Source: Phycisphaerae bacterium (GTDB lineage: Bacteria > Planctomycetota > Phycisphaerae > UBA1845 > PWPN01). From it: a stretch of 32,662 nucleotides of DNA. The position numbers were made by a program, and so were the translations under genes. The stretch is from positions 1-32,662 of the forward strand of contig JAAYDF010000172.1 in the NCBI GenBank assembly GCA_012729395.1, read 5' to 3'. The notes below the pieces were generated by a model that had not been told where the DNA came from, did not search any database, and was given only the letters and a program-made list of their open reading frames with translations. This document shows positions 20,861 through 23,728 of this stretch, piece after piece; the stretch's first letter is position 1, and the number at the start of each line of letters is the position of its first letter.

Positions 20861-21036
20861 GTCTGCTCCTCTCAATTGAGTGGATTCCAGGGATGGCACC
20901 TCAGTCGATGCCGTCTGGCAAAATGTAACCCCGTTTTCCCTGCCGGTGTGTAACGTGTCCGTAACACCTTCTGGGTAATCTGGATGCAGCGAGTCGAAAC
21001 GCAACGAGCGAGCGAATGCCAGCCATGCCCTCAAAT

Positions 21037-21060
21037 AAATCATCCTGACACCATTTTTCG
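21037..21060. repeat. Single arm of a REP-like repeat (left of the acetylesterase gene)
   Basis: The core TCATCCTGACACCATTTTT followed by CG matches, in inverted orientation and without mismatch over 21 bp, the sequence at 22719-22739. It is one arm of the palindrome described at 22719-22796. The two copies bracket the acetylesterase gene. Confidence 0.8.
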
Positions 21061-21066
21061 GGGCGG

Positions 21067-21095
21067 TTGCGGTTCGCGTCCGCATAAGCCATACT
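21067..21095 (+). promoter_or_regulatory. Candidate promoter for the acetylesterase gene
   Basis: TTGCGG (21067-21072) and CATACT (21090-21095) are 17 nt apart, starting 7 bp after the REP-like arm. The consensus match is moderate (3 of 6 and 4 of 6). The leader would be about 30 nt. Confidence 0.35.
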
Positions 21096-21128
21096 GCCGG
21101 CATCTTTGTCATATGGGAGCGAAAACCG

Positions 21129-22706
21129 ATGAGAAGACTGAGCCGCGTCAACCGATGTTGTGTAGCGATCCTGCTGGCCATTGCCGCTCCGGCGGTCTGC
21201 TTGGCGGCAGGACCGTCCATGCCCGCGATCTTCAGCGACCACATGGTCCTGCAGCGAGAGAAGCCCATCCCTATTTGGGGCAGAGCCGAAGCCAATGAGA
21301 ACGTCACCGTGACTCTGGCCAAGGGAAAGGAAACCCCGGTCGCCAAGGCAGGCACCCAAGCGGACGCCAGCGGCAAATGGATGGTACGTCTGCCTGCCCT
21401 ATCCGCCGGCGGACCGTATACGCTGCAGATCAAAGCCAAGAAGGCCTTCAAGTTTGAAAACGTCATGCTCGGCGAGGTGTGGGTCTGCTCGGGTCAGTCC
21501 AACATGTATTGGGTCGTCAGCCGTTCCAAGGATGCGGACAAGGAGATCGCGGCGGCGAACTACCCCGATATTCGCCTCTTCTCCGTGAATCTGCGAACGG
21601 CGCCCATGCCGACCGAAGAGGTGAACGGCGGGCCGTGGCAGACATGCACACCGGAGACGATCAAGGACTTCTCGGCAGTCGCCTACTTCTTCGGACGCGA
21701 GCTACATGGCGAGTTGAAAGTGCCCATCGGTCTCATCAAGACCGCGTGGGGCGGCACAGCCATCGAGCCGTGGACGCCCCCGGTGGGTTTCGCGTCAGTG
21801 CCGAGCACCCAGCGGTACTTCGATCAGGTTCAGGAGGCTGACCGCGACTACATCAAGAGCCTTGCCGACCACCTGGACAAGCGGGCCGAGTGGGCTCATG
21901 CCGCCGGCCAAGTGAAACTCGACGAGGGCGATAAGCTGCCGCCCGCTCCGATGCTCCCGGAGCACACCTTCGCCAACGGCGGCAACCGTATGCCCACCGT
22001 CATATACAACGCCATGGTCGATGCCATGGTCCCCTACGCCATCGCGGGGGCCATCTGGTACCAAGGCGAAAACAACTGCTCACGAGGCGACGGCTTGGCG
22101 TATGCCGACAAGATGAAAGCACTCATCCAGGGCTGGCGGGCAATGTGGGACCAGGGCGAGTTCCCCTTCTACTACGTGCAGCTCGCTCCTTATCCGTATG
22201 CAGCCAGACCTCCCCACACTCCCGATCGTCTTCCTCTGATATGGGAGGCACAGCGCATTGCCTTGAACGTGCCGAACACCGGCATGGTGGTTGTGACTGA
22301 CATTGGCGACACCACCAACATCCATCCGACCAACAAGCAGGAGGTTGGACGACGGCTTGCCCTGTGGGCCTTCGCGAACACCTACGGCCGGACGGATCGG
22401 GTCTACTCGGGCCCGCTGTACAAGTCCATGCAGGTCGAAGGCGCGAAGATTCGCATCAGCTTCGACCACGCCGGCACAGGCCTGACCTCGCGGGATGACA
22501 AACCTTTGAGCTGGTTCCAGGTCGCCGGCGAGGACAAAGTCTTCGTTGATGCTCAGGCGGTGGTAGATGGAAACACGGTGGTGGTTTCCAGTGACCAAGT
22601 GAAGCAGCCGGCAGCGGTACGATTTGGCTGGAACGAACTGGCCGAGCCCAACCTGATGAACAAGGAAGGCCTACCGGCCTCGCCCTTCCGCACCGACTCA
22701 TGGTAG
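21129..22706 (+). CDS. Secreted sialate O-acetylesterase-type SGNH hydrolase
   Basis: A 525-residue exported esterase. The signal peptide is about 1-27 (LAIAAPAVCLAAG). Residues about 30-110 form the N-terminal beta-domain (MPAIFSDHMVLQREKPIPIWG), followed by the SGNH catalytic domain: nucleophile Ser124 in SGQSNM, the WGGT block (GLIKTAWGGTAIEPW), AIWYQGENN near 308-316, and the Asp/His box in DIGDTTNIHPTNKQEVG. All catalytic elements are present. The family removes O-acetyl groups from sialic acids or, in environmental bacteria, from other acetylated glycans such as xylan; the latter is more likely here. GGGAGCG precedes the ATG. The gene is bracketed by inverted REP-like repeats with no transposase inside. 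Confidence 0.92.
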   Translation: MRRLSRVNRCCVAILLAIAAPAVCLAAGPSMPAIFSDHMVLQREKPIPIWGRAEANENVTVTLAKGKETPVAKAGTQADASGKWMVRLPALSAGGPYTLQIKAKKAFKFENVMLGEVWVCSGQSNMYWVVSRSKDADKEIAAANYPDIRLFSVNLRTAPMPTEEVNGGPWQTCTPETIKDFSAVAYFFGRELHGELKVPIGLIKTAWGGTAIEPWTPPVGFASVPSTQRYFDQVQEADRDYIKSLADHLDKRAEWAHAAGQVKLDEGDKLPPAPMLPEHTFANGGNRMPTVIYNAMVDAMVPYAIAGAIWYQGENNCSRGDGLAYADKMKALIQGWRAMWDQGEFPFYYVQLAPYPYAARPPHTPDRLPLIWEAQRIALNVPNTGMVVVTDIGDTTNIHPTNKQEVGRRLALWAFANTYGRTDRVYSGPLYKSMQVEGAKIRISFDHAGTGLTSRDDKPLSWFQVAGEDKVFVDAQAVVDGNTVVVSSDQVKQPAAVRFGWNELAEPNLMNKEGLPASPFRTDSW

Positions 22707-22718
22707 GACACATCGCCA

Positions 22719-22796
22719 CGAAAAATGGTGTCAGGATGAATTTTGGGGGCTTATACTGCGGTACAAGCCCCTAAAAATCATCCTGACACCATTTTT
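22719..22796. repeat. REP-like hairpin: 32-bp inverted repeat with 12-nt loop
   Basis: Left arm 22721-22752 and right arm 22765-22796 are inverted copies with only two mismatches over 32 bp; the outer core is AAAAATGGTGTCAGGATGA. The loop is 22753-22764. It lies between the convergent acetylesterase and methyltransferase genes and could end transcription from both sides. The layout fits a REP/BIME-type element mobilised in trans by a REP-associated tyrosine transposase (family knowledge); no transposase gene is in the window. Confidence 0.85.
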
Positions 22797-23728
22797 GCGG
22801 CGGCGAAGAGTGTGGCGGATTCCTGGGGAGATTCCGGGCTTTTTCTGGGCCGGCCGGGCCTGCGGGTCGGTTTCGTTTCGGGCGTGGCGGGCACGCTCGT
22901 CAACGGGTTTTCCACACCATCCAGCGGGTCACCGGCCCGCGTGCCCCGCAAACGCTCATCGATGCGAGCGGCATACTCCGGCGAGAGCTCAAAGCCAAGA
23001 AATTCGCGGCCGAGCTTCTTGGCGACGGCCAGCGTCGTACCGCTGCCGCCGAAGGGGTCAAGCACCAGTTCGCCCTCGTTCGAGCATGCCCGGATGATGC
23101 GGCCCAGAAGCTGCTCGGGCATCTGACAGCCGTGCCAGCCTTTGCGCTCTTTGAACGTGCCGCACACGCGGGGGAAGTACCAGACATCCTCGTCGGCCGC
23201 GAAACCGCCGGGCACATCCTGCGGCCGCAGGATCCAGGTGTCATCAGGCAAGCGCCCGACGGGATTGGCTCGCCGGTCGGCGTAGACCAGTTGCCGCGCG
23301 GAGGGCACGCGGATCGTGTCTTCGTTGAATGTGAAGCATTCCGGATCGCGGATGAAGTAGAACAGGTGGGCGTGGCTGCGGCTGAACTTGTGCTTGCAGT
23401 TGACGCCGAAGGTGTAGTACCAGATCACCCAGCTCCGGCAGATAAGCCCCAGCTCCCGCTGGGCAATAAGCTTGAGCTCGGCCGCGTACTCGTCGCCGAT
23501 CGCCAGCCAGAAGGAGCCCGTAGGCTTGAGGGCCCGGGCTACGCCGGCCATCCATCGCCGCGACCAGTTGAGGTACGTGTCGGCGTCCTTGCGGTCATCG
23601 TAGACGTCGTAGTCGTAGCCGATGTTGAAAGGCGGGTCGGCAAAGGCCAGATCAACGCTGCCCTCATCGAGACGCGCGAGCCCATCGACGCAGTCCATCT
23701 GATGCACGTGATTGGGCTTCAGCCGCAT
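22778..23728 (-). CDS. Orphan beta-class DNA (N4-cytosine or N6-adenine) methyltransferase with AT-hook
   Basis: A 316-residue SAM-dependent DNA methyltransferase. Catalytic motif IV, DPPF at 31-34, precedes motif [10 protein letters not shown] at 224-232, with motif X-like FELSPEY after it; this order defines the beta class. The target-recognition region would be about 110-210. A C-terminal tail (about 265-316) includes the AT-hook-like core RRPGRPRK (289-296). AGGAGG lies 9 nt before the ATG. No restriction endonuclease gene is adjacent, so it appears solitary. The last codons and the TGA stop (22778-22780) lie within the right arm of the REP-like hairpin, which encodes the terminal KMVSG. 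Target sequence and base specificity cannot be stated. Confidence 0.93.

Follow-up and report, generated by a model that had tools for sequence, protein, structure and literature searches.

The question raised by this locus is whether a carbohydrate acetylesterase gene that lies between inverted repeats belongs to a unit that can move or invert. The window, by which we mean the whole stretch of DNA that was analysed (32,662 nucleotides from a Phycisphaerae bacterium), contains three copies of the core AAAAATGGTGTCAGGATGATTTTT, at positions 21037 to 21060 (minus strand), 22720 to 22743 (plus strand), and 22774 to 22797 (minus strand). A first-pass annotation had described a perfect inverted match of 21 bp around the esterase gene and a second, opposite arm at 22765 to 22796, and had suggested a composite structure that might move or invert the gene. 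We use the term REPIN as it has been defined, for an inverted REP doublet whose variable spacer retains a hairpin (PMC3116915). The features that enter the argument are the following.

21037 to 21060, minus strand: solo REP arm, which reads GAAAAATGGTGTCAGGATGATTTAT on the minus strand; intergenic, upstream of the esterase gene and of a divergent gene starting near 20862
21129 to 22706, plus strand: SASA-type carbohydrate acetylesterase of 525 aa (PF03629, E = 1.9e-20)
22720 to 22797, no strand assigned: complete REPIN, consisting of a plus arm (22720 to 22743), a variable palindromic interior, and a minus arm (22774 to 22797)
22778 to 23728, minus strand: N6/N4 DNA methyltransferase (PF01555), convergent with the esterase gene

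Repeat arms around the esterase gene

The perfect 21-bp match was confirmed both in its coordinates (21040 to 21060 and 22719 to 22739) and in its exact reverse complementarity, and it is far above chance: the expectation for an exact inverted match of this length within 2 kb is about 5e-7, and the window holds three core matches with at most three mismatches, against a mean of 0.25 in shuffled sequence. The match can be extended to 29 nt with 93% identity (21037 to 21065 and 22714 to 22742), and the arm at 22761 to 22796 pairs with 22721 to 22756 over 36 nt with 92% identity. The opposite arm that had been annotated does exist, but the grouping needed correction, as the second and third arms make up one complete hairpin element and the first stands alone. 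The complete element (78 bp) has a DNA fold of -34.4 kcal/mol (z = -11.3) and is extragenic, except where it runs into the end of the methyltransferase gene; an Rfam search of the window returned no match. For the solo arm, no partner was detectable in the roughly 500 bp inward of it, and this arm probably remains from a REPIN that has decayed.

The full REPIN spans the interval from one convergent stop codon to the other. The last codons of the methyltransferase gene (KMVSG) and its stop codon TGA are provided by the right arm of the element; homologues of the methyltransferase terminate at a similar position and with different residues. The exact fit between two convergent stop codons, one of which the element itself supplies, the very stable fold, and the presence of T5 at the end on both strands would all agree with a domesticated role, in which this REPIN has been retained since it ends convergent transcription or protects the mRNAs. 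On the other hand, the element was not called by a simple terminator scan and shows no conservation in the relatives compared, none of which is of the same genus; we consider such a role rather unlikely, and it would in any case be compatible with the main explanation developed below. Separately, the arms with at least 150 open codons number 22, 16, and 9 in the three frames, and since this excess is only mild, we do not claim that the in-frame TGA of the arm is preferred as a host stop codon.

The repeat family across the genome

The label "REP-like" proved to be correct, as the arms are members of a genome-wide REPIN family. The source genome is a GC-rich 5.74-Mb draft in 370 contigs (99.6% complete, 3.4% contamination), in which the motif AAAATGGTGTCAGGATGA occurs in about 140 copies with at most two mismatches, the reversed control giving 0. 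Most motif copies were fetched for pair analysis, and among these, from a copy list that is not fully exhaustive, there were 60 distinct close inverted pairs, besides roughly a dozen arms that stand alone. Where neighbouring arms lie no more than 220 bp apart, the order is plus/minus in 59 of 64 cases, minus/plus in none, and tandem in the other five. The interiors of the pairs measure 19 to 165 nt (median, 51 nt), nearly all of them are different, and folding is more stable than in shuffled sequence (z < -2) for 18 of 59. Several REPINs contain long, near-perfect palindromes that are mutually unrelated, while the 24-bp arms stay constant. It is conceivable, if improbable, that the interior palindrome is made anew with each REPIN, as could happen if template switching primed by the transposase copied neighbouring DNA in inverted orientation. 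The exact 22-mer was not found in the viral contigs searched, and a literature search with the core 9-mer returned only unrelated primers.

Gene-sized gaps between neighbouring copies, counted where they are whole in the fetched regions, number 13, of which 12 are of minus/plus order and one is of plus/minus order; this single plus/minus gap contains a transposase gene. Random placement would be expected to give 1.5 to 2.7 gene-sized gaps, showing that the elements are clustered, and stretches flanked by REPINs on both sides are therefore common in the genome. In one region (C279:1-6300, L083), six REPINs lie within 5.8 kb and leave five gaps of about 0.8 to 1.2 kb, a density well above that of random placement.

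These arrangements bear on the idea that the inverted arms bound a composite transposon with the esterase gene as its cargo, for which the perfect 21-bp match on either side of the gene speaks. A working element consists of a plus arm, an interior, and a minus arm, and the esterase gene lies between a minus arm and a plus arm, so that it is outside both elements: the solo arm is oriented away from the gene, and the gene's stop codon precedes the start of the full REPIN. Cargo of a composite transposon would be placed between repeats in the element's own orientation, whereas the order here is the reverse. Twelve other gene-sized gaps share the minus/plus order because complete elements follow one another, and the transposase gene is the only gene in a plus/minus gap. 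Esterase orthologues (about 50 to 68% identity) are moreover common, being present in most genomes of the family; they stand at other loci, with a gene order that is not conserved between genera, and the GTGTCAGGA core is absent from the seven orthologue loci that were read with longer flanks. The first-pass annotation had held that repeat-free relatives with the gene and its neighbours in synteny would speak for an independent arrival of the repeats; the orthologue loci that were read are indeed repeat-free, but they are not syntenic. With the arms pointing the wrong way, the composite structure proposed at the outset is not supported, and we regard the esterase gene as cargo with great scepticism. 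It is probably a bystander between two neighbouring elements, and the repeat arrangement around it is therefore ordinary.

Hardly more credible is the proposal that the arms act as recombination sites that invert the esterase gene as a phase switch. The size and identity of the extended 29-nt inverted arms (93%), which are 1.65 kb apart, would be in keeping with it; against it, many unrelated genes in the genome have such arms around them, no recombinase was noticed, in passing, near the locus, and the esterase gene has its own start, with no invertible promoter identified. Rare inversion by recombination between the arms of 21 to 29 bp may nevertheless take place.

A transposase gene between two arms

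A REP-associated transposase elsewhere in the genome, which the first-pass annotation had proposed to look for, was found on another contig, with the same repeat on either side. Y1_Tnp was matched 11 times in the genome, and one of these Y1 (HUH) transposase genes (C260:85358-86044, minus strand) sits between arms of the same repeat at 85346 and 86084. The protein scores above the cut-off for PF01797 and reaches 56 bits against the NCBIfam model "REP-associated tyrosine transposase", which is below the cut-off of 80 bits. In an alignment of 10 sequences, H61-W-H63 of the HUH motif and the catalytic tyrosine Y123 are invariant. In this transposase, as in several relatives, the C-terminal residues KSS come from the downstream arm, which supplies the stop codon too.

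Among named genomes, a scan gave 80 transposase homologues, the closest of which are found in Phycisphaerae and other Planctomycetota MAGs. Where identity is at least 60%, 14 of 15 loci have an arm on either side; in L136, the left arm is weak. In this group, the left arm, AAAAGGTGTCAGGA(T/A)GA..., lies about 52 bp upstream of the start codon (-53 in L123) and is followed in most cases by TTGAC, and the right arm overlaps or follows the stop codon. Among homologues of lower identity, a matching sister motif (GGTGTCAGGAACC, GGGGTCGGGAGTC, or GGGGACGCAG) was present on both sides in 23 of 28 sampled loci, and the variant is usually identical in the left and right arms of one locus. Across 61 genomes, the presence of at least two exact repeats is associated with a close transposase (5/6 versus 3/55; Fisher p = 5e-5).

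We put at roughly 0.9 the probability that the repeats form one high-copy REPIN family on which the Y1 transposase acts in trans, the bracketing of the esterase gene being a by-product of two neighbouring insertions. The data show directly the copy number, the paired architecture, the hairpin, the arm order, and the association of the transposase with the arms in different genomes. Two 24-bp inverted arms and the variable interior between them form, when single-stranded, a single long hairpin. For the action of the transposase on these elements and for the history of the solo arm, we infer the following course of events: (i) the folded arms are most likely recognised by the RAYT/TIRYT-type HUH Y1 transposase, whose gene itself sits between such arms; (ii) the transposase would copy or move the short elements in trans; (iii) one REPIN would have inserted where the convergent esterase and methyltransferase genes meet at their 3' ends; and (iv) a second REPIN would have inserted upstream of the esterase gene and then decayed to a single arm.

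Several further observations concern the surroundings of the transposase genes. At the source genome's own transposase locus (L035, 1914 to 1937), the upstream arm, about 52 bp away from the start codon, directly abuts the -35-like hexamer TTGACA, and the same is seen in most relatives (L122 to L201). The gene adjoining the transposase gene (L035, 1918 to 2739, minus strand) resembles by eye an undecaprenyl-diphosphatase gene; its product ends in ...AAPKMVSG, and its last residues and stop codon come from the repeat arm, as in the methyltransferase gene of the window. Other Y1_Tnp genes, in L031 (C67) and L040 (C199), have around them long direct repeats of up to 217 and 266 bp and different inverted repeats, which suggests that the genome holds further repeat/transposase families.

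Relation to described systems and to an insertion sequence

Most described REPs are defined by a GTAG tag. No unpaired GTAG or GTGG tetranucleotide was found at the ends of the arms, and because the tag is absent, the repeat is not a GTAG REP. The resemblance to the REPIN/RAYT system of Pseudomonas fluorescens SBW25 (PMC3116915, PMC2817692) is otherwise extensive: both consist of high-copy inverted doublets with conserved ends and a variable spacer that keeps its hairpin potential, and in both, the matching transposase gene lies between inverted copies of the same repeat. The arms described here differ in being built of an A-tract, a core, and a T-tract without a GTAG/GTGG head, and in their host, which belongs to the Planctomycetota. 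By structure, this is a REPIN/RAYT system, the elements of which we infer to be mobilised. Such enzymes from E. coli, Stenotrophomonas, and Marinomonas have been reported to cleave REPs in vitro (PMC8266576).

A closer parallel is offered by TIRtrons and TIRYTs, RAYT-like genes whose long terminal inverted repeats have no relation to GTAG REPs; some form dispersed families, and part of them have the motif GGGGWSAS in common (PMC3733652). Here, too, Y1_Tnp genes lie between 24-bp arms without GTAG; the core GGTGTCAG differs from the TIRtron motif by one mismatch, and the sister motifs GGGGTCAG match it. The number of about 140 copies appears high in comparison with TIRtron families, which are called moderately abundant (PMC3733652). 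Judged from these sequence features, the nearest described subtype is the TIRtron/TIRYT (PMC3733652).

The tempting but wrong reading of the locus as a mobile esterase cassette is thus removed, and a large REPIN/transposase system whose arms are without the GTAG tag is identified in the Planctomycetota. Combined with the sister motifs of Nitrospira and other groups, the system offers a natural series in which the co-change of single-strand transposases and hairpins can be followed.

The repeat core also harbours a multi-copy insertion sequence with the terminal repeat GAATGGTACTGCCGTGCGG, which was seen in the source genome at 34 contig-end loci (L052 to L069 and L219 to L234) and gave no match in the 199 relatives searched. 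It is known from its ends only, the interior being missing from the assembly. Of the 34 ends, 28 lie within GTGTCAGGAT or the sister motif GTGTCAGGAAC, and their flanks would fit a target duplication of about 10 bp. In sitting in the repeat core, it resembles the REP-targeting insertion sequences described elsewhere (PMC1525189; ISPpu9, PMC8450116).
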